Source: an uncultured Synechococcales cyanobacterium (lineage in GTDB: Bacteria > Cyanobacteriota > Cyanobacteriia > Thermosynechococcales > Thermosynechococcaceae). From it: a DNA stretch of 64,000 nucleotides. This document shows, piece after piece, positions 34,581-45,835 of this stretch; the first letter of the stretch is position 1; every line of letters begins with the position of its first letter. A program made the position numbers and the translations under genes. The stretch is taken from the NCBI GenBank assembly GCA_902806435.1, contig CADCWO010000246.1, positions 1 through 64,000 on the forward strand, written 5' to 3'. The notes beneath the pieces were generated by a model. The model did not search any database and was not told where the DNA came from. It was given only the letters and a program-made list of their open reading frames with translations.

Positions 34581-36827
34581 TCACTGGACGACCTGCTTCA
34601 TATAATTTCCCCACAGCTGGGCAGCTAGACCACTACTACCGGAGGTCGGCGTATTATCATCATTACCTAGCCAAATTCCAGTTAGCAGATTTTTACTAGG
34701 CACATAGCCAATAAACCAGAGGTCACGGTTATCATTGGTTGTCCCCGTTTTACCTGCTTCATCTAATCCTATCCCAGCACTCCTGCCAGTTCCGGACTGC
34801 ACTACCCCACGAAACAAAGTAGTCATAGTATCCGCTACGTCAGCATCAAGGACTTGGGCACTCGCCTCTTTTTGCCGCTCATAGATGACCCGGCAACTCT
34901 GAAAATCCTTTGGGTTTTCGCAATCGCCAGCATCCAAAATGCGGCTGATGGCACGAGGAGGTGTACGCATCCCCCGGTTGGCGACTACGGCAAAGGCTCC
35001 AGCCATTTCTAACAATGTCGTTTCACTTTGGCCAAGTACCAGACCAGGCACTGGAGCTAAGTCCGATTCAATCCCCATACGGCGAGCCATCCCAATCACG
35101 TTTCCTAAGCCCATCTCACGGGCCACCCGCAGGGCGATCGCGTTCTCAGATAGCGCCACTCCCGTGTACATATCCATACTACCGGCACCGGAGCGACAGC
35201 CAGCAAAAGCTTGGTTTTGCCACTCCACCGGAGCGCAGGAGAAGACGTTACCAGGGGAGAGACCTTGGGCAATCGCAGTTGTGTAGGTAAAAATTTTAAA
35301 GGTAGATCCTGGTTGCCGCTCTGCTTGCGTCGCCCGGTTAAACTGACTGCGGTTGTAGTCTACCCCGCCCACTAAGGCATGGATTTGGCCGCTGGTAAAG
35401 TCGAGGCTAACCAGCGCTCCTTGAGAGAAATTGTAGCTTCCCCCTTCAGTATTCACGGCATTAGCAACGGCTGTCTCCGCTTTGGCTTGCATGCCTAAAT
35501 CAAGACCCGTTTCGACAATAAAGTTACCCTCAGCCGCCAACTGCTTCCCCAGCAGGGTTTCTAGCTCCTCAAGCACATAAGTGTAAAAGTAGGGGGCTTT
35601 TGTGCTTTGTAGTTCTTCGAGGGCAGCGGGGCTGACTTCAATCCGCGATCGCCGTGCCCGCGTCGCTTCATCGTTACTGATCATGCCCTGGGCTGCCATG
35701 CGGTTAATCACGCGATCGCGATACTCAATAGCGGTGTTGTAATCCTGGATTGGATTAAAGCTGTTCGGGGCTGGCAGAATTCCCACCAGCGTTGCCGCTT
35801 CCGACAGGCTTAGCTCTGTGGCTGACTTAGCGAAGTAAAACTGCGCTGCATCTTCAAACCCAGCCGTGCCGCTACCCAGGTAAACGCGGTTTAAGTAGGT
35901 CCGCAATAAAAAGTCTTTGCTATAAACCGTTTCTAACTTTAGGGCAACCACGGCTTCGCGGAACTTGCGTCCGGCAGAATCTTCTCGGCCCACATAGTCG
36001 CGCAACAAGTTACGGGCCAACTGTTGCGTCAGGGTACTACCGCCTTCACGGATCCCGCCGCCCAGGATATTGACTACCGAGGCGCGCAAGATGCCGAGCG
36101 GGTCGACGCCTAGGTGCCAGTAGTAACGACTGTCTTCAGACGCCAGGACAGCCTTGGCGATATAAGGGGAGAACTCTGAGAGCCGCTTGATTTCTCGATG
36201 GACTTCATCTCGGCGACGGCGCAGGGGGGTTTCGCCATCTCGCGCTACCACCACCACGGGTCCTTGGGTAGAGGCAGGTAAGGGGCGTACAGAGAAGCGC
36301 TGCCATTCCACACCAATCCACAGCAAAAGTAAAGCGGTCAGACTACCCGCACCGTAAAGGGTATAGCGTGCTGCTTGGATATACCAGGGAGGTGGATCGA
36401 CGTACTGCACCCTAACCGCTGCTTCTAACTCCGGCGGGCCAAACGTCAATACATCTTTGTGGTGTAGCGTCCGCCCTTTAACCCGTTGCTTGCCGCGAAA
36501 CACACCGTTGGTCGAATTTTCATCCTTGATTACAAAAGGAGTTTTATGCCGCCGATCGCGCTCTAGGGAAGCATGAATCTGGCTGACAATCGGATTGCGA
36601 ATCACAATATCGCAGGACTTGGAACTGCGGCCAATCAAGTAGCGATCGCCCAGTAACGGGTAAACCTGGGCTTTTTCAGCTCCGGCATCCTGAACCCAGA
36701 GCTCCGGCACCCTAGCATCAGGCTTAAGGGCCAGTTTGGAAAAGTCAACTTTCGCCTGAATCGTCTGTACCGCTTGGGTAAGATTACCCAGCAACGTCCG
36801 GGATTGCGGAGATGGGGGAGGCGTCAT
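34581..36827 (-). CDS. Class A penicillin-binding protein with N-terminal FHA domain
   Basis: This 748-residue protein builds and crosslinks peptidoglycan. Residues about 60-140 form an FHA domain (YLIGRSSKSCDIVIRNP, then HASLERD and NSTNGVF), which in other proteins binds phosphothreonine. One transmembrane helix follows at about 150-170. The glycosyltransferase (GT51) domain shows EDSRYYWHLGVDPLGILRA and GGSTLTQQLARNLL. The transpeptidase has STFK in RQPGSTFKIFTY, SEN in ALSENAIALR, and KTGT in AGKTGTTNDNRD. The FHA domain lies on the cytoplasmic side, which suggests control of wall synthesis by Ser/Thr kinases. All catalytic motifs are intact. Confidence 0.92.
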   Translation of the reverse strand: MTPPPSPQSRTLLGNLTQAVQTIQAKVDFSKLALKPDARVPELWVQDAGAEKAQVYPLLGDRYLIGRSSKSCDIVIRNPIVSQIHASLERDRRHKTPFVIKDENSTNGVFRGKQRVKGRTLHHKDVLTFGPPELEAAVRVQYVDPPPWYIQAARYTLYGAGSLTALLLLWIGVEWQRFSVRPLPASTQGPVVVVARDGETPLRRRRDEVHREIKRLSEFSPYIAKAVLASEDSRYYWHLGVDPLGILRASVVNILGGGIREGGSTLTQQLARNLLRDYVGREDSAGRKFREAVVALKLETVYSKDFLLRTYLNRVYLGSGTAGFEDAAQFYFAKSATELSLSEAATLVGILPAPNSFNPIQDYNTAIEYRDRVINRMAAQGMISNDEATRARRSRIEVSPAALEELQSTKAPYFYTYVLEELETLLGKQLAAEGNFIVETGLDLGMQAKAETAVANAVNTEGGSYNFSQGALVSLDFTSGQIHALVGGVDYNRSQFNRATQAERQPGSTFKIFTYTTAIAQGLSPGNVFSCAPVEWQNQAFAGCRSGAGSMDMYTGVALSENAIALRVAREMGLGNVIGMARRMGIESDLAPVPGLVLGQSETTLLEMAGAFAVVANRGMRTPPRAISRILDAGDCENPKDFQSCRVIYERQKEASAQVLDADVADTMTTLFRGVVQSGTGRSAGIGLDEAGKTGTTNDNRDLWFIGYVPSKNLLTGIWLGNDDNTPTSGSSGLAAQLWGNYMKQVVQ

Positions 36828-37084: not shown

Positions 37085-37777
37085 ATGTTTATTCATAAAA
37101 AAGAACCCCTGCATGTGGTCGATGTTGATCAGGCAAACCCGCGTTTCGCTCAGTTTCTGTTAGAGCAGTTTGGCGGAGCAACGGGAGAACTGACCGCAGC
37201 ATTGCAGTACTGGGTGCAGTCATTCCATGTCGAGAACGCAGGTATCAAGGATATGCTGCAAGACATTGCGATCGAGGAGTTTGGGCATCTAGAGATGGTC
37301 GGCAAGCTAGTTGAAATCCACACGAAAGGCGTTGACCAGACGGATGCTTATAAAAGTACGCTATTTGCGGTTCGGGGGATGGGACCCCACTTTCTAGACA
37401 GCCAGGGCAGCGCTTGGACCGCTAGCTACATCAATGAAGGCGGTGATGTTGTGCGGGACCTGCGGGCTAATATTGCCGCAGAAGCAGGCGCACGTCAGAC
37501 CTATGAATCGTTGATCAAGATGGCACCGGATGAAGGCACCAAGAAAACCTTGGTTCACTTGCTGACCCGGGAAATATCTCACACACAGATGTTCATGAAA
37601 GCCCTAGATTCGTTAGGTAAACTAACGGACCCAATGTTCGGTACTATCCAACCCGATGAAACGGTTGATATCTACTACAACCTTTCTAGCAACGGCGGCC
37701 AGGATGAGCGGGGTGCTTGGAACTCTGAACCTACTTTCAGATATATTGCTGACCCTGCCCAAAGTGTTTCTAGCTAG
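37085..37777 (+). CDS. Manganese catalase
   Basis: This 230-residue non-heme catalase has the four-helix bundle with dimanganese ligands visible in GATGELTAALQYW, IAIEEFGHLEMVGKLVE, NIAAEAGARQTYE and REISHTQMF. It destroys hydrogen peroxide in the cytoplasm. The length is at the short end of the family, as in other cyanobacterial forms that lack the long C-terminal tail. It is convergent with the LOV-type histidine kinase gene, with a shared hairpin between them. Confidence 0.92.
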   Translation: MFIHKKEPLHVVDVDQANPRFAQFLLEQFGGATGELTAALQYWVQSFHVENAGIKDMLQDIAIEEFGHLEMVGKLVEIHTKGVDQTDAYKSTLFAVRGMGPHFLDSQGSAWTASYINEGGDVVRDLRANIAAEAGARQTYESLIKMAPDEGTKKTLVHLLTREISHTQMFMKALDSLGKLTDPMFGTIQPDETVDIYYNLSSNGGQDERGAWNSEPTFRYIADPAQSVSS

Positions 37778-37825: not shown

Positions 37826-37861
37826 GGAGGAGGGGAAGAAAGATTACTTTCTACCTCCTCC
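37826..37861. terminator. Shared hairpin between convergent catalase and kinase genes
   Basis: GGAGGAGG (37826-37833) pairs with CCTCCTCC (37854-37861), and AGAAAG (37837-37842) with CTTTCT (37847-37852) inside it, around a 4-base loop. The kinase stop codon lies inside the stem. There is no long U-tract on either strand, so its efficiency as a terminator is uncertain. Confidence 0.5.
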
Positions 37862-40804
37862 CAGGCTCTGTTTGCCACTCAAGCTGTTCACTACCGCAAC
37901 TAGTTGATCGGGGTTGACGGGTTTAGCCATGTGCATCTGGAAGCCTGCTGCCAAGGCGCGATCGCGGTCTTCTTCTCTGGCATAGGCGCTAAGGGCGATC
38001 GCCGGCATTTTTCCACCTTGATCAGCGAGACGCGCCCTCACTTTTTGAATCAGGGTGTAGCCATCTTCCTCTGGCATGCCAATATCACAAATTAGGATGT
38101 CAGGTTGGCTTTGATCGAGTGCCGCGATCGCCTGTCTTGCAGAAGCAACAACCGTTACCTGTGCACCATACTGCTCAAATACGGCATTGACAATTTCCCG
38201 CGCATCAGCCTCATCATCTACCACAAGTACTCGTAAATTGTGCAGTGGTGAAGAGCCATTCAGAACAGGCTCGCTGATTGCAGACGTTTGGGACTGGCTG
38301 CTGACTGAACTACGGCCAGCAGCGAGTGGTAGCCTAATCGTAAACGTCGCTCCTGTGTTTTCGCCTGCGCTTTCAGCTTGAACAGTGCCTCCGTGCAACT
38401 CTATCAGATAGCGGACAATTGCTAGCCCCAGACCCAAGCCCCCATAGGCTCTGGTACTGGTGCTGTCCGCTTGACGGAAACGCTCGAAGACGTAGGGCAG
38501 AAACTCTGCACTGATGCCTTTACCGGTATCACTGACCCTGAGCTGAATAGAAGAGGCAGCTTGTAGGAGCCGTACTTCGACTCGTCCACCTTTTGGGGTA
38601 AATTTAATTGCGTTAGACAGTAAATTCCACACAACCTGTTGCAAACGATCTGGATCCCCTGAGACAAGGAATTGTGGGTGCGACTGGGGTGACGAAGGGG
38701 TGCTGGATTGGAGAGTTGCGTCAAGATCGTTCAACTCAACTGTCTCTACTTGATCAGGCTCTACTCCAAATCCAGTCCAAACCCTCAGCTCAATCGCCTT
38801 GACCTCAGCCGTAGGCCGAACAGTGTCTATTGCTGAGGTAACTACTGCGCTAAAGTCGCAAGGGTACAGCTGAAGCTTGAACTTGCCGCGAATAATCCGG
38901 GAGATATCTAAGAGATCCTCAATCAGTTGGGCCTGGGCTTTAGCATTGCGCTCAATCGTTTCTAGGGCGCGCGCTGTGACCTCGGAGCTCAGCTTGCGAG
39001 TGCGCAGTAGTTGCACCCAGCCAAGCATCGCATTCAGGGGCGTTCGCAACTCGTGGGAAAGGGTCGCTAAAAATTCATCTTTGATCTGGTTGACTGTTTC
39101 GGCTTTGGACCGGGCCTCCTGCTCGGCTTTCAGAAGCTGTTCACGTTCTATCTCTACTTGCTTGCGATTGCTGATATCGGTCTTCACCCCAATAAAGTGG
39201 GTCAACCGACCAGTATCATCCCGGACAGGAGCGATCGCCAGTTCGTTCCAGAAAGGTGAGCCGTCCTTGCGGTAATTCTCAATCACTACTCGGCAACCGC
39301 GCCCGGCAGCCACGGCTTCCCGAATCTCCGCTCGAACGGCTTGATCAGTGTCAGGGCCCTGCAAGAACCGGCAGTTGCGCCCCAGGGACTCCTGTTGAGA
39401 ATAGCCACTCATCCGTTCAAAAGCAGGGTTGCAGTAGATGATTGGATTATCCGGTTGATTGGGATCAGTAATGACAATCGCGCTTAGGGTCTCCGCCATC
39501 GCCCGGTTTTGCAACCGCAGTTGCTCCTCTACCTGCTTGCGTTCTGTAATGTCACGCATTACCTTGACAAAGCCACGAAATTGCCCAGCGTCTAGGGGGG
39601 TGACAAGTCCAGTCGCCCAAAACCGACTGCCGTTTTTTCGCACATGCCAGCGATCGTCTTCGGCCCGACCATCGGTCAAGGCTTTGTGTCGTTCTTTCTC
39701 CGGTTCCCTTTTCTGAACGTCTTCCGGTATAAAAAATATAGAACTGGGCTGGCCGAGGATCTCTGCTGCTTGGTAACCTAAAACGCGCTCGGCTCCCGCA
39801 TTCCAACTGGCAACCCGCCCCTCCATGTCGAGCATGAAGATGGCGTAGTCCTTGGCACTCTCCACTAACACTCGGAACCGCTCTTCACTCTGCCGGAGCT
39901 CTTCTTCTTTGCGCTGACGATTAATTGCTTCTGCTAAGACGTTAGCGATTGCTTGCAGGAAGTTGGTATCATCCTGGGTGAACATCCGTCGCCTAATTGT
40001 ACAAGCACTTAAGACCCCAAAGGGCTGGCCTTCTCCCTGGATGATCACGCTGACACTACTGAGCACCTTGTGCTCTTGAAAAAACAAAGGAATTTCAAAC
40101 CGCGTTTCTGTTCGCAGATCTTTAGTGATCACTGGCTTATTAACCATTAGGGTATAGCCAGCGTGAGACTGTCTCTCAACTCCCACTGTTAAATGTCCCA
40201 CTACCCCTGGCTGCCAACCCACCCCCGCGCTGAGCAGCAAGGTGTTGCCACCAGGAAGCCGCTCTAAAATCTTGGAGTACTCCACCTCTAAGGTTTGGGC
40301 AATCAATAAAACTGCTTCATCCATCAGCCCAGAGATACTAGTGCCACTGAGTGCCTGATGGCCAAACTGCGCTACCGCTGCCTGCTGGCGCAGCCGCGCT
40401 TTCAGGACAAACTCTGCCCGCTGATGGGCAGCAGCTACAACGCTGACCAGTAAGCCCAACAATACGAATACAACAATTCCTAGGACCTCATCCCAACAAA
40501 CCGCGAAGGAGTAGAGTGGAGGAGTAAAAAAGTAGACACTGGCTAAAGTAGCCAAGGTGCTAGCGAGTAACCCAGGCCCCAGGCCACCATACCCAGCACT
40601 CGCAGCCACAGCGACAAAAAAGACGACAAAAGATTGCTCTGAGGCAATTAGAGGATCTAGAAAAAATTTGATAATTACTGCTTGGGCAACAGCTAATACA
40701 GCAATTCCATAACGTAGCCAAGCAGAGTGCACTGTTCCCATTGTTTCGATCTTTGCAGCAGCGAGATTAAAACTATTTGTGGCAAAGGCGCCTATCACAT
40801 CCAC
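37844..40804 (-). CDS. Hybrid histidine kinase with DUF4118, GAF, PAS and LOV domains
   Basis: This protein of 986 residues begins with a DUF4118 four-helix membrane unit (to about 120). It continues with GAF (about 150-290), PAS (about 300-420), a second PAS of LOV type (about 430-550), HisKA with SHELRTP (His about 584), HATPase (NLLSNAIKFTPKGG, FRQADSTSTRAYGGLGLGL) and a C-terminal receiver (ILICDIGMPEEDG). The LOV signature GRNCRFLQG places the flavin-binding cysteine at about residue 478, followed by NYRKDGSPFWNEL and HFIGVKTDIS. It should therefore sense blue light through FMN. The start is GTG 40804, though ATG 40741 is possible. No separate response regulator is adjacent. Confidence 0.88.
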   Translation of the reverse strand: MDVIGAFATNSFNLAAAKIETMGTVHSAWLRYGIAVLAVAQAVIIKFFLDPLIASEQSFVVFFVAVAASAGYGGLGPGLLASTLATLASVYFFTPPLYSFAVCWDEVLGIVVFVLLGLLVSVVAAAHQRAEFVLKARLRQQAAVAQFGHQALSGTSISGLMDEAVLLIAQTLEVEYSKILERLPGGNTLLLSAGVGWQPGVVGHLTVGVERQSHAGYTLMVNKPVITKDLRTETRFEIPLFFQEHKVLSSVSVIIQGEGQPFGVLSACTIRRRMFTQDDTNFLQAIANVLAEAINRQRKEEELRQSEERFRVLVESAKDYAIFMLDMEGRVASWNAGAERVLGYQAAEILGQPSSIFFIPEDVQKREPEKERHKALTDGRAEDDRWHVRKNGSRFWATGLVTPLDAGQFRGFVKVMRDITERKQVEEQLRLQNRAMAETLSAIVITDPNQPDNPIIYCNPAFERMSGYSQQESLGRNCRFLQGPDTDQAVRAEIREAVAAGRGCRVVIENYRKDGSPFWNELAIAPVRDDTGRLTHFIGVKTDISNRKQVEIEREQLLKAEQEARSKAETVNQIKDEFLATLSHELRTPLNAMLGWVQLLRTRKLSSEVTARALETIERNAKAQAQLIEDLLDISRIIRGKFKLQLYPCDFSAVVTSAIDTVRPTAEVKAIELRVWTGFGVEPDQVETVELNDLDATLQSSTPSSPQSHPQFLVSGDPDRLQQVVWNLLSNAIKFTPKGGRVEVRLLQAASSIQLRVSDTGKGISAEFLPYVFERFRQADSTSTRAYGGLGLGLAIVRYLIELHGGTVQAESAGENTGATFTIRLPLAAGRSSVSSQSQTSAISEPVLNGSSPLHNLRVLVVDDEADAREIVNAVFEQYGAQVTVVASARQAIAALDQSQPDILICDIGMPEEDGYTLIQKVRARLADQGGKMPAIALSAYAREEDRDRALAAGFQMHMAKPVNPDQLVAVVNSLSGKQSLGGGRK

Positions 40805-41158
40805 AGCGAAGTAAAAAGCAGTAATACTTCCACTGAGATAGATGCTGAAGGTAGTAACCGAGGGTTATTCAACCATGCTATCTGAGTGCCAACCTCAAAT
40901 CAGCAAACCTGTAGCACTGTATATCTACTCTTGTAACCTTAAGTCTTTGTTCAGCAACTCCATCAATAGTCAGGTAAGCAGTTTAATCGATAGATCTTTC
41001 CTCCTAACATTGGCGATCGCTGAGCGGCAAGTCCCCAGTCTGGAGCCCCTACATGCGCCTCGCCACCACAGGTAGATTTAATTGATCCAACAAAACCTAC
41101 ATATAGTGTCGAGGATCGGCTAATCTACTTTCAACCCCTTGTATTAGTGGAACTACCT
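40805..41158. other. Promoter region between the LOV kinase and dnaE-N
   Basis: This divergent intergenic stretch has no supported gene. A plus-strand frame at 40842-41075 lacks any recognisable motif. It should contain the leftward kinase promoter and the rightward dnaE-N promoter. Confidence 0.5.
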
Positions 41159-43753
41159 ATGTCCTTTGTCGGCTTGCATATCCACAGTGACTACAGCCTG
41201 CTCGATGGGGCCAGTCAGCTCCCGGAATTAGTGGATCAGGCGATTCGATTGGGAATGCCAGCGATTGCCTTGACGGATCACGGGGTGATGTACGGGGCGA
41301 TTGAGCTGATCAAAGTTTGCCGAGGTAAAGGGATCAAGCCGATTATCGGCAATGAGATGTATGTGATCAACGGCGACCCGGAAAAGCAAGAACGACGGCC
41401 CCGTTATCACCAGGTTGTTTTAGCTAAAAACACCCAGGGCTACAAGAACCTGGTGAAGTTAACCACCATCTCTCATCTGAAAGGCATGCAGGGCAAAGGT
41501 ATCTTCTCGCGCCCCTGCATCAACAAGGAGCTACTGGCTCAATACCACGAGGGGCTAATTGTCACCAGTGCCTGCTTAGGCGGCGAAGTTCCCCAGGCGA
41601 TCCTGCAGGGCAAGCCAGAAATTGCTCGCCGCGTTGCCCAGTGGTACAAGGAGCTGTTTGGGGAGGACTACTATTTAGAAATTCAAGACCACGGTTCCCT
41701 AGAAGATCGGATTGTTAATGTTGAGATTATCAAAATCGCGCGTGAGCTAGATATTAAAGTCATCGCCACAAATGACTCCCACTTTATTTCTTGCTTCGAC
41801 GTCGAGGCCCACGACGCCCTGCTATGTATTCAAACTGGCAAACTAATCGCCGAAGATAGCCGCCTGCGCTACAGCGGTACGGAATATCTGAAGTCCGCCG
41901 CAGAAATGGCCCAACTATTCTGCGACCACCTACCGGAGGATGTGATTCAAACGGCGATCGCGACCACGGTGGAAGTTGCCGACAAGATTGAACCCTATCA
42001 AATTTTGGGTGAACCCCGGATTCCCAACTATCCCGTACCGGCTGATCACACTGCTGATACCTACCTGGAGCAAGTCACCTGGCAGGGATTGCTGGAACGG
42101 TTGAATCTTCAATCCCGCACAGACGTAGACGTTACCTACCGCCAGCGGTTGGATTATGAACTCAAGATGATGCAGCAGATGGGGTTCTCGACTTACTTTT
42201 TGGTCGTCTGGGACTACATCAAGTACGCCAGGGATAGCGGCATCCCAGTCGGTCCAGGGCGGGGCAGTGCCGCCGGCTCCCTAGTTGCCTATGCCCTAAA
42301 AATCACCAACATTGATCCGGTGCATCATGGGTTGCTGTTCGAGCGCTTCTTAAACCCAGAACGCAAGTCGATGCCGGATATTGATACCGACTTTTGTATT
42401 GAGAAACGCGATCGCGTGATTGAGTACGTCACCCAGAAGTACGGTGCCGACCGGGTGGCGCAGATCATTACCTTCAACCGCATGACCTCCAAGGCAGTCT
42501 TAAAGGACGTCGCCAGAGTGCTGGATATTCCCTATGGGGAAGCGGATCGGATGGCAAAGCTAATCCCGGTATCGCGGGGCAAGCCAGCTAAATTAAAGGT
42601 GATGATCTCTGAGCAAACGCCTGCCCCAGAGTTTAAGGAAAGGTACGACAAAGATCCGAAAGTGCGCCACTGGCTAGACATGGCAATGCGAATTGAGGGG
42701 ACCAACAAAACCTTTGGTGTCCATGCCGCCGGGGTGGTGATTGCCTCCCAGCCTTTAGACGAAATTGTGCCCCTACAGCGTAACAACGACGGCTCCGTGA
42801 TCACCCAATACTTCATGGAAGACCTAGAAATGCTGGGCCTACTAAAGATGGACTTCCTTGGCCTGCGGAATTTAACCATGATCCAGAAAACCGTGGATCT
42901 GATCAAGCAGACCCGCAACTTTGCCCTGGACGCAGATAACATTCCGATGGATGACCTCAATACCTTTCAGCTCCTAGGCCGGGGCCAACTAGAGGGTATC
43001 TTCCAATTAGAATCATCTGGGATGCGTCAGGTAGTCCGCGACCTCAAGCCCTCCAATCTAGAGGACATTTCTTCTATCCTCGCCCTCTATCGCCCTGGCC
43101 CCTTGGATGCCGGACTAATTCCCTTATTTATCAATCGAAAACATGGCCGGGAAAAAATAGAGTATCAGCATTCGTCTTTAGAGCCAATTCTTAAGGAAAC
43201 CTATGCTGTTTTGGTTTATCAAGAACAGATCATGAAAGTAGCCCAAGATTTGGCCGGATATTCTTTGGGTCAGGCTGATCTGCTTCGTCGAGCAATGGGA
43301 AAAAAGAAAATTTCTGAGATGCAAAAGCATCGAGAAATCTTTGTTGATGGAGCGGCAAAAAATGGGGTGAAGCCCAAAATTGCTGAAGCATTATTTGACC
43401 AAATGGTGCTGTTCGCAGAATATTGCTTGAGCTATGACACTGAATTATTAACTGTTGAATATGGACCACTGCCCATTGGTAAAATTGTTGAGCAAGGTAT
43501 TAACTGCACTGTTTATAGTGTCAATAATAATGGCAATGTCTATACGCAGCCCATCGCGCAATGGCATCATCGTGGTCAGCAAGAGGTTTTTGAATATTGT
43601 CTAGAGGATGGCTCAATCATTCGAGCGACAAAAGACCATAAGCTTATGACCACTGATGGCCAGATGCTACCAATTGATGAAATATTTCAGCGGGGGTTGA
43701 ACCTGAAGCGTTTAGAAAAACTGCAAACATGCTTACAACTTACCGCAAGTTAA
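41159..43753 (+). CDS. dnaE-N: DNA polymerase III alpha, N-terminal part with N-intein (DnaE-N)
   Basis: This 864-residue chain is the first part of the replicative polymerase, from the PHP domain ([14 protein letters not shown]) to the palm with [16 protein letters not shown] and the catalytic aspartates in MPDIDTDFC. The extein part is 755 residues and ends FAEY. From TGC 43424 comes a 109-residue N-intein whose blocks A ([14 protein letters not shown]) and B ([12 protein letters not shown]) match the Npu/Ssp DnaE split intein. I chose ATG 41159 over GTG 41147 because family members start at [11 protein letters not shown]. The stop TAA at 43751 overlaps the start of the endonuclease gene. 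Trans-splicing with DnaE-C should rebuild a chain of about 1,163 residues. Confidence 0.95.
43141..43423 (+). other. Low-G+C tail of the N-extein
   Basis: Over this part of the coding sequence G+C drops to about 41%, against about 53% in 42,901-43,140 (hand count). The low value continues through the intein and endonuclease and rises to about 54% at 44,641-44,760. The protein sequence is normal DnaE. This is consistent with a co-conversion tract brought in with the intein. Confidence 0.5.
43424..43750 (+). other. N-terminal half of the DnaE split intein
   Basis: The 109 residues run from Cys1 to the DnaE-N stop. Key residues are Cys1, the TxxH motif in block B (TKDH, residues 69-72), and [13 protein letters not shown], all matching the fast Npu class. 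The last dozen residues after [14 protein letters not shown] depart from Npu, which ends soon after that point. Confidence 0.92.
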
Positions 43754-44508
43754 ACCCTTATCAGAAGCAGCAAATTATCGAGGCCTTTCAGAATGGAATG
43801 GAATGCCGTGGTATTTCTTCTTGCCTGACAGTTAGTAGCAGAGCTGTTTCAAGGGTATTAGTTGAGTCTGGCATGAATACCAAGCGGAGGAACCGTTACA
43901 CTCTAAACGAAAGTTATTTTGATATTATTGACTCCCCAGTTAAGGCATATTTGCTAGGATTAATTGCTGCTGATGGCTGTGTTACTACTACAAACTATGT
44001 CGCTTTTGAATCCGTTGATCAAGAGTTGACAGAACAACTTAAGGTAGAACTGCAATATTCAGGTGCAATCAGGATTATTCAGCCTCAAGGCTATGCTCCT
44101 CATTACCGGATTAACTTTTCTTCTAAACAGTTAGCGACTGCACTTTCAAAATGGGGTGTTGTGGCTGGTCGAATGGTATCTGGCCTTTTTTACTTTCCTG
44201 AGCCGGAGTACTTATCTGCTTATGTTTTGGGCTACTTTGATGGTGATGGTTGCGCCTATGTTAATCATGGCAGGAGTGGTGGACTAGTCTGCATAGTAGG
44301 TTCCTTTGAATTTACTAGCGAATTGGCAAGGCTTTTGAAAATGGGCGTTGTTATGAAGCATCACTCAAAACCAGTTTACTATTGGCGAATTTATAGTCGA
44401 GAAAACATAGATGCACTCTATAACCTCATCTACCACCACCAAGGGTTAGGGTTGCGACGCAAGAAGAGCAAAATCGAACAAATTTTGGGGAGCTACAAAC
44501 GTGGTTAG
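43729..44508 (+). CDS. LAGLIDADG homing endonuclease between the intein halves
   Basis: This 259-residue protein has two LAGLIDADG motifs, [10 protein letters not shown] at residues 74-83 and [10 protein letters not shown] at 165-174. Each ends in an acidic residue before glycine, as needed for metal binding, and the spacing is that of a single-chain enzyme. Residues 8-48 look like a helix-turn-helix ([25 protein letters not shown]) that could aid DNA binding. The gene is free-standing: it overlaps dnaE-N by 25 bases and dnaE-C by 8. Its frame is shifted by -1 relative to both and is open upstream only to 43681. No strong Shine-Dalgarno precedes ATG 43729, so translational coupling or a frameshift from dnaE-N is possible. 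Confidence 0.92.
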
Positions 44509-44608
44509 AATTGTTAGTCGCAAATCAGTAGGTACTCAGGCGGTCTACGACATTGGTGTTTCAAAAGACCATAACTTTTTGTTAGCTAACGGTTTGGTTG
44601 CTTCCAAT
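44501..44608 (+). other. C-terminal half of the DnaE split intein
   Basis: The 36 residues include block F (VYDIGVSKDHNFLL) with the conserved aspartate and histidine, and block G ending ASN before the extein cysteine. The penultimate residue is serine rather than histidine, as in Npu DnaE, so this is not a defect. The length equals that of Npu DnaE-C intein. Confidence 0.93.
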
Positions 44609-45835
44609 TGCTTTAATAAATCCCATTCCACAGCCTACGGCTACGTCACCTATCAAACCGCTTACCTGAAGGCCAATTATCCCGTTGAATACATGGCGGC
44701 GCTGTTAACGGCCAACAGCGGAGATCAGGCAAAGGTGCAGCGCTATATTGCCACCTGCTTAAACATGGGTATCCAGGTGGAGCCGCCAAATATCAATCGT
44801 TCTGGGGTAGACTTCACCCCTTTAGAAGCAAGTATTTTGTTTGGACTGTCGGCGGTGCGGCATGTTGGGCAAGGGGCGATTGAAGAAATCCTGGCCGCGC
44901 GTCAGAGCGCCGAGTTTCAATCCCTGGCGGACCTGTGCGATCGCGTTGATTCCCGCGTGGTCAACCGCCGGGCTTTAGAAGCCTTAATTCATAGTGGGGC
45001 CTTCGATACCCTTGAGCCGAATCGCAATCAACTGATTCATGATCTTGAGCTAGTAATAGACTGGGCGCAGACCCGGGCCAAGGACCGTGCTGTTGGTCAG
45101 GGAAATTTATTTGACCTATTTGGTAGCAGTAGCACTAACAAAGAAAATTCCACCTTTGAATCTGCGCCAAAAGCTGCCCCGGTGGAAGACTTACCCCAAA
45201 ATGAAAAGTTACGCCTCGAAAAAGAACTTTTGGGCTTTTACATTAGCGATCATCCCCTGAAGGCGGTGCAACAATCTGCCCAAATTTTGGCTCCGGTTAA
45301 CCTACTCGAGCTGGAAGAACAGCCGGAGAATAGCCTAGTCAGCGCGATTGTGCTGCTGACGGAAGTGAAGCAGATCGTCACCAAAAAAGGCGATCGCATG
45401 GCAATCGTTCAACTGGAAGACCTGACAGGTAAGGCAGAAGCGGTCGTATTCCCTAAAAGCTTTGAACGGATTGGCGCTTACATTACCCCGGATCAACGCC
45501 TAATGGTCTGGGGCAAAGTAGACCGCCGGGATGATCGGGTGCAGTTAATCATCGAAGATGCTGAACCTGTGGAAGAAGTACGGCTGGTGATGGTAGAACT
45601 TACGCCTCACAAGGCAGCGGATATTGAAGAGCAGTATCGCCTCAAAACGATACTGCTGGAACAGGGTGGCGAAGGTGAAAACGCCAAATTTCCAGTTGTG
45701 GCAGCGATCGGCAACCAGCACCAGCGTTCCTTTGTCCGCTTGGGGGCTCGCTTCCGGGTAGAAAATGACCAGGCTGCGGTGCAAGCACTGGTGAGCGCCG
45801 GGTTTCAAGCCCGTTCCTCCAGATTAACCAGCTAA
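44501..45835 (+). CDS. dnaE-C: DNA polymerase III alpha, C-terminal part with C-intein (DnaE-C)
   Basis: This 444-residue chain starts with a 36-residue C-intein ([27 protein letters not shown]) ending VASN, followed by the +1 cysteine in CFNKSHSTAYGYVTYQTAYLK. That is the conserved insertion site of the cyanobacterial DnaE intein. The rest covers the remaining fingers and tau-binding parts of DnaE, with an OB-fold region (IVTKKGDRMAIVQLEDLTG). The start is GTG 44501, with GGGGAG eight bases upstream inside the endonuclease gene. The C-extein is 408 residues. The order dnaE-N, endonuclease, dnaE-C on one strand is unlike the dispersed loci known in other cyanobacteria. Confidence 0.95.
   Translation: MVRIVSRKSVGTQAVYDIGVSKDHNFLLANGLVASNCFNKSHSTAYGYVTYQTAYLKANYPVEYMAALLTANSGDQAKVQRYIATCLNMGIQVEPPNINRSGVDFTPLEASILFGLSAVRHVGQGAIEEILAARQSAEFQSLADLCDRVDSRVVNRRALEALIHSGAFDTLEPNRNQLIHDLELVIDWAQTRAKDRAVGQGNLFDLFGSSSTNKENSTFESAPKAAPVEDLPQNEKLRLEKELLGFYISDHPLKAVQQSAQILAPVNLLELEEQPENSLVSAIVLLTEVKQIVTKKGDRMAIVQLEDLTGKAEAVVFPKSFERIGAYITPDQRLMVWGKVDRRDDRVQLIIEDAEPVEEVRLVMVELTPHKAADIEEQYRLKTILLEQGGEGENAKFPVVAAIGNQHQRSFVRLGARFRVENDQAAVQALVSAGFQARSSRLTS

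Follow-up and report, generated by a model that had tools for sequence, protein, structure and literature searches.

A lysine at the signalling-glutamine position of a LOV domain in a predicted membrane-anchored cyanobacterial hybrid histidine kinase

The signalling glutamine of LOV domains was long thought to be essential. Mutants and one natural receptor now show that it is not. For YF1, light responses were reported to be kept in the majority of 19 Gln substitutions; the residue is described as dispensable in several LOV proteins, with water proposed as a relay for protonation of flavin N5 (Dietler et al. 2022, PMC9098866). The same study counts around 350 putative natural LOV-deltaQ receptors, at whose site charged residues are "largely absent", and reports that a GGDEF fragment of one natural Met-type receptor responds to blue light in E. 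coli. It also describes YF1 Q123H as binding flavin and making no adduct, and Q123R as failing to bind flavin and tending to aggregate (PMC9098866). Lysine has been engineered into this position in iLOV-Q489K and CagFbFP-Q148K, both of which are reported to still hold flavin with absorption blue-shifted by 6 and 3 nm, respectively; the engineered Lys turns from the flavin and opens the end of I-beta, and Thr at the V392/I52 site returns it (PMC8131319). A review describes receptors of the LOV and bacteriophytochrome types in particular as cytosolic and soluble (PMC6798134).

The kinase considered here lies in a window of 64,000 nucleotides (the whole stretch of DNA that was analysed) on contig CADCWO010000246.1 of an uncultured Synechococcales cyanobacterium (GCA_902806435.1; 4.79 Mb in 278 contigs). 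Its ORF and strand are those given by the initial annotation, with 986 residues if counted from the GTG (Table 1). The ATG is the likelier start, giving a predicted 965 residues, because the start of the orthologue L031 aligns with Met22; no strong Shine-Dalgarno sequence was seen by eye at either start. Pfam places seven domains, each above its cut-off, in the order DUF4118-GAF-PAS-LOV-HisKA-HATPase-REC, confirming every module that had been named alongside the LOV domain. With a HisKA domain holding His584, an HATPase_c domain and a receiver whose Asp907 we take, from family knowledge, to be the phospho-acceptor, the protein has the parts of a hybrid histidine kinase. The GAF domain holds a single cysteine (C268, within LSACTIRR), and inspection of the Cys positions by eye recognised no bilin-type motif in it of the sort expected for a cyanobacteriochrome. 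The layout had been called non-standard, and it does look rare: a GAF-PAS-LOV query run at E <= 1e-70 against 242 class genomes, with at most seven candidates scored per genome, matched, among the candidates listed, the kinase and, within its own genome, a partial paralogue (the orthologue's genome, G003, is absent from those rows and was probably outside the sample). In the open-licence literature, one paper mentions both DUF4118 and LOV, and its subject, to go by the title, is universal stress proteins.

Table 1. Features of the kinase and neighbouring genes in the window (residue numbers count from the GTG start).
Feature	Position	Strand	Basis
Bifunctional penicillin-binding protein with N-terminal FHA	34581-36827	-	Pfam
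Mn catalase gene	37085-37777	+	Pfam; tail to tail with the kinase
Hybrid histidine kinase gene	37844..40804	-	ORF call, 986 aa from GTG 40804; likelier start ATG 40739-40741
Receiver (Response_reg), residues 859-972	37889..38230	-	Pfam; predicted phospho-acceptor Asp907
HATPase_c, residues 716-828	38321..38659	-	Pfam
HisKA, residues 575-637, SHELRTP, His584	38894..39082	-	Pfam; orthologue alignment
Signalling-helix linker, Asp543 to phospho-acceptor His584	39053..39178	-	41 residues; commonest heptad register
LOV domain, residues 434-553 (Pfam PAS_9 442-545)	39146..39505	-	Pfam, PDB sequence matches, alignments, predicted fold
Lys541, codon AAG, where the signalling Gln is conserved (AsLOV2 Q513, YtvA Q123)	39182..39184	-	Alignment
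Arg491, at AsLOV2 V463	39332..39334	-	Alignment
Cys478, codon TGC, predicted flavin-adduct cysteine	39371..39373	-	Core-residue table, AsLOV2 alignment
First PAS (PAS_4), residues 321-424, without Cys	39533..39844	-	Pfam; Cys positions
GAF, residues 160-294	39923..40327	-	Pfam 7.6e-11
DUF4118 membrane unit, residues 32-131	40412..40711	-	Pfam 6.8e-17; hydropathy peaks
DnaE-N with N-intein	41147-43753	+	Pfam
Free-standing LAGLIDADG gene	43729-44508	+	Pfam
C-intein with DnaE-C	44501-45835	+	Pfam

The stretch GRNCRFLQG (residues 475-483), on which the LOV assignment had first been based, is borne out as a LOV signature: it contains the motif G-X-N-C-R-F-L-Q with the adduct cysteine, and solved LOV domains match the region both by sequence and by predicted fold. 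All nine core residues as defined after PMC9098866 are present, Cys478 included. In a PDB sequence search, 166 distinct sequences match at E <= 0.001 (best 9vf7_A, 9.3e-42), so that the match is not a chance one; the names among the best 60 of them include LOV domain, phototropin, aureochrome, blue-light-activated histidine kinase, sensory box or PAS/PAC sensor protein, and histidine kinase. An AF2 model of the domain (126 residues, 21 aligned sequences, mean pLDDT 79.2, pTM 0.71) has the LOV/PAS fold and retrieves 9vf7 as its top structural match (Z 17.3 over 126 residues, 2.0 A), LOV structures heading both lists. The Asn residues of G-beta and H-beta (YtvA N94, N104) are N510 and N520, in the stretch NYRKDGSPFWNEL (510-522), and the phosphate-binding arginines are R479 and the one aligned with AsLOV2 R467. 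Read with a list of what we take to be flavin-contact positions, the AsLOV2 alignment shows N449, C450, R451, L453, Q454, R467, N482, N492, F509 and G511 conserved; the adduct Cys and the flavin-contact Asn, Arg and Gln residues are thus kept, with Arg on the phosphate side and Asn on the pyrimidine side. With this complement of residues, the domain very probably binds flavin, and adduct formation at Cys478 appears somewhat favoured. An additional arginine, at the AsLOV2 V463 position, occurs only in the kinase and its orthologue among the 61 Cys-bearing rows of a 72-row set.

The stretch GVKTDIS (539-545), which had been counted as further support for a LOV domain, is instead where this one deviates. 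Because Lys541 replaces the signalling Gln of I-beta, the domain is placed as a Gln-free variant and not as a canonical LOV; with nine of nine core residues and a lysine, it falls among the natural LOV-deltaQ domains, taken as those with at least eight of the nine core residues and no Gln at the I-beta site. Loss of the Gln as such is not new, because natural Gln-free LOVs have been published (PMC9098866), and the Lys type with its Cys is a further variant. In the open-licence literature, consulted mostly as titles and abstract openings, no description was found of a natural Lys type that keeps the Cys, of the membrane hybrid layout, or of an orthologous pair with Lys in one member and His in the other.

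How common such variants are was gauged with nucleotide patterns (AAY-TGY-MGN-TTY-YTN-CAR, then GGN-RTN), spaced by 165-171 bases for the Gln and Lys types or by exactly 168 for the A/G/T and His types; as letters and spacing are fixed, domains that depart from either escape the count, whichever type they belong to. Within the one phylum to which the Gln, Lys and A/G/T counts are confined, the Gln type gave 81 listed matches in 55 of 386 genomes, and the Lys type a single match in 386 genomes, the kinase itself. Codons starting with A, G or T (a DNN pattern blind to Leu(CTN), Pro, His and Arg(CGN) codons) were matched four times, in three of 388 class genomes (three times in two genomes of an earlier 214-genome sample): by the kinase with Lys, by an Ala domain of the same genome (G000:C244) and, in another genus, by a Ser (G466) and an Ala (G584). 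The His pattern matched one of 94 relatives, the orthologue. A pattern search of the kinase's own genome also matched C267, and a control pattern likewise had one match. Among fetched LOV segments, which are best matches to the kinase query plus chosen regions and not a random sample (76 rows in the table, 72 in the tree), 18 of 76 fail the rule of eight of nine core residues plus Cys, and the 58 that pass comprise 53 with Gln, two with Ser and one each with Lys, His and Ala.

The only orthologue found, L031 (G003:C338), comes from the Thermosynechococcaceae MAG YX3bin19. It has the same seven-module order, is 65% identical overall and 63% in the LOV domain, and carries all nine core residues identically, the adduct Cys included, with His (codon CAT) at the Gln site. 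Between the two proteins, dN is 0.250 for the whole protein, 0.254 for the LOV domain, 0.214 for the PAS domain and 0.11-0.13 for the kinase core. On this pairwise estimate, purifying selection acts on the LOV domain, because its dN of 0.25 stands against a dS of 1.4, a ratio that is rough since dS is near saturation.

Both genomes hold further LOV-like domains that have departed from the usual residues. In the kinase's own genome, four are found at E <= 1e-35, on C246 (Cys, Lys), C70 (Cys, Gln), C244 (Cys, Ala) and C187 (Tyr for Cys, Ser), and a fifth, weaker match lies on C199, where Pro replaces the Cys and Glu the Gln. The set in G003 consists of the His orthologue, a Ser domain that has lost a core Arg (L150), an Ala domain that has lost two core residues (L151) and one with Pro for Cys that keeps the Gln (L152). 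In a tree of 72 rows (four of the 76 were dropped) and 121 columns, the Lys and His domains pair (92/93) amid Gln LOVs, and the Ser/Ser/Ala/Ala domains of both genomes form one clade (100/100), three of whose four members have lost core residues. A single origin of all six Gln-free domains was also considered: the best tree splits the Lys/His pair from the Ser/Ala clade, and the AU test does not reject one clade (p = 0.43), so that one loss and two losses cannot be told apart. In the stretches read, the four Ser/Ala relatives combine HisKA and HATPase_c with an N-terminus that is CHASE3, receiver or hydrolase-like. Ser takes the Gln site in two of them, G000:C187 (L003, the one with Tyr for the adduct Cys) and G003:C333 (L150), both of which have N-terminal receiver domains; G000:C244 (L001), a CHASE3-LOV-HisKA-HATPase kinase, keeps the Cys and has Ala in place of the Gln.

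The kinase is indeed tail to tail with a manganese catalase gene, as initially reported. The attached idea of a light-peroxide module with the catalase is, however, very improbable: tail-to-tail neighbours do not share a promoter, and the link is rejected because the two other catalase-bearing genomes have no LOV kinase alongside. This catalase occurs in three of 29 genomes, the kinase's own included; the others, G003 and G006, have genes 87-88% identical, around which, within 9 and 11 kb, no LOV kinase was matched by tblastn at E <= 1e-8. In G003 the LOV kinase lies beside dnaE and the catalase on a separate contig (its downstream ORF looks NRPS-like by eye), and G006 had no LOV match at E <= 1e-15. 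Most simply, then, the adjacency is chance. As the contig of L031 stops 94 bases past the kinase stop, its 3' neighbour is out of view.

On the other side, the kinase and its orthologue are both head to head with dnaE. In the window, dnaE (41147-45835, + strand) is cut into three overlapping ORFs; the halves of cyanobacterial split DnaE are usually far apart. G033 likewise has these three parts, in this order, at a single locus. At the orthologue's locus (L031 880-5558), dnaE reads FAEYCFNKSHS, with the intein absent at that site, and its two parts are split by other ORFs that look intein- or endonuclease-like by eye only.

How, then, might a LOV domain with this lysine work? Given the intact core residues, the published Gln-free responses and the register of the linker, we lean towards a blue-light sensor that still works, though in altered form; redox sensing and decay are its serious rivals. 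In full, this is a membrane-anchored hybrid kinase whose Gln-free LOV domain would bind flavin and answer blue light along a route that bypasses the Gln. We give this reading an even chance. The domain would bind FMN, and blue light would produce the Cys478-flavin adduct and protonation of flavin N5; the signal would reach the I-beta strand through water or through a shift of the Lys541 strand. The helical linker would then carry the change to His584, from which phosphate would pass to Asp907 and on to a further partner, with DUF4118, GAF and the first PAS probably supplying other inputs. The 41 residues from Asp543 to His584 have the register modulo 7 that is common to 25 of 41 PAS-HisKA linkers of the fetched loci, with 12 more one residue off, and the usual helical route to the kinase therefore looks intact; coupling of the LOV domain to kinase activity is about as likely as not. 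Evidence against this best reading is the histidine of the orthologue, if it behaves like that of YF1 Q123H as reported (PMC9098866). A further point against it is that the engineered Lys is described as opening the I-beta end and that the Thr which holds it is absent here: the site equivalent by alignment to V392/I52 is Val444 in the kinase and Val also in the orthologue, from which Lys541 is predicted to point outward. Finally, Gln-free kin in both genomes are losing core residues, one of them the Cys.

Because the engineered change from Gln to His blocks the adduct in YF1, some weight stays with a redox sensor or a decaying LOV. A flavin sensor tuned by redox or pH, in which the flavin is bound and a base in place of the Gln shifts the domain from adduct photochemistry to sensing flavin reduction, would explain why both orthologues have a protonatable base at the site; it also agrees with the flavin-binding, adduct-free Q123H variant (PMC9098866) and with the resemblance of the predicted fold to the FAD-binding PAS domain of NifL (2gj3, Z 15.3, which shows fold only). 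A pure redox sensor would have no need of the adduct Cys that both proteins keep, and we consider this reading unlikely, if a serious contender. Slightly less likely again is a LOV domain whose sensory role is being lost and which serves as a structural PAS between the other inputs and the kinase. That a single site holds Lys in one protein and His in the other suggests a lost constraint, and the core-residue losses of the Ser/Ala clade in the same two genomes point the same way; yet neither orthologue has lost any of the nine core residues, and the LOV dN, taken to two digits, does not exceed the whole-protein value, though it is above those of the PAS domain and kinase core. An ordinary LOV photoreceptor, its Lys codon due to a sequencing error or to a neutral change, is improbable. 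One base separates Gln CAG from Lys AAG, and the sequence comes from a single assembly; against this, the orthologue also lacks the Gln, which is otherwise the rule among fetched segments. With Lys541 here and His in the orthologue, a reading of the protein as an ordinary blue-light kinase is unsupported.

A bolder version of the altered sensor, doubtful in our estimate and more so than decay, is that the LOV kinases of this lineage gave up the Gln, perhaps more than once, and that in the kinase and its orthologue a Lys or His base near flavin N5, together with the Cys and the extra Arg, forms an evolved membrane flavin switch reading light along with pH or redox and dispensing with the glutamine flip. 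If true, a flavin switch combining these signals at the membrane would be naturally evolved. Since Lys and His occur naturally in orthologous kinases with intact Cys, one protein pair could test photoreceptor, redox sensor and relic against each other, and a natural Lys variant may also inform the spectral tuning of flavin fluorescent proteins.

Among described systems, the LOV-deltaQ receptors share with the kinase a LOV core that has lost its Gln, and differ in that charged residues are reported as largely absent at the site (PMC9098866), where the kinase has Lys within a DUF4118 membrane hybrid kinase. The same position holds Lys in iLOV-Q489K and CagFbFP-Q148K, in a flavin-holding LOV fold (PMC8131319). 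These are engineered fluorescent proteins, CagFbFP being a C85A variant, whereas the LOV domain of the kinase is natural and has its Cys. The adduct Cys is missing from iLOV as well. Brucella LOV-HK, YF1 and the LOV of Meiothermus ruber Mrub_1259 (9vf7) likewise have LOV in a histidine kinase and are among the best sequence or fold matches; 9vf7 carries Gln in place of Lys541, and Brucella LOV-HK and YF1 have Gln too. To the layout of these three, the kinase adds DUF4118, GAF, PAS and a receiver. With KdpD-type sensors it has the DUF4118 membrane unit in common, whereas KdpD and Usp domains are absent from the 12 Pfam families found here and LOV and a receiver are added. Closest of all is the YX3bin19 kinase, with the same seven-module order and the same place beside dnaE, and with His instead of Lys.
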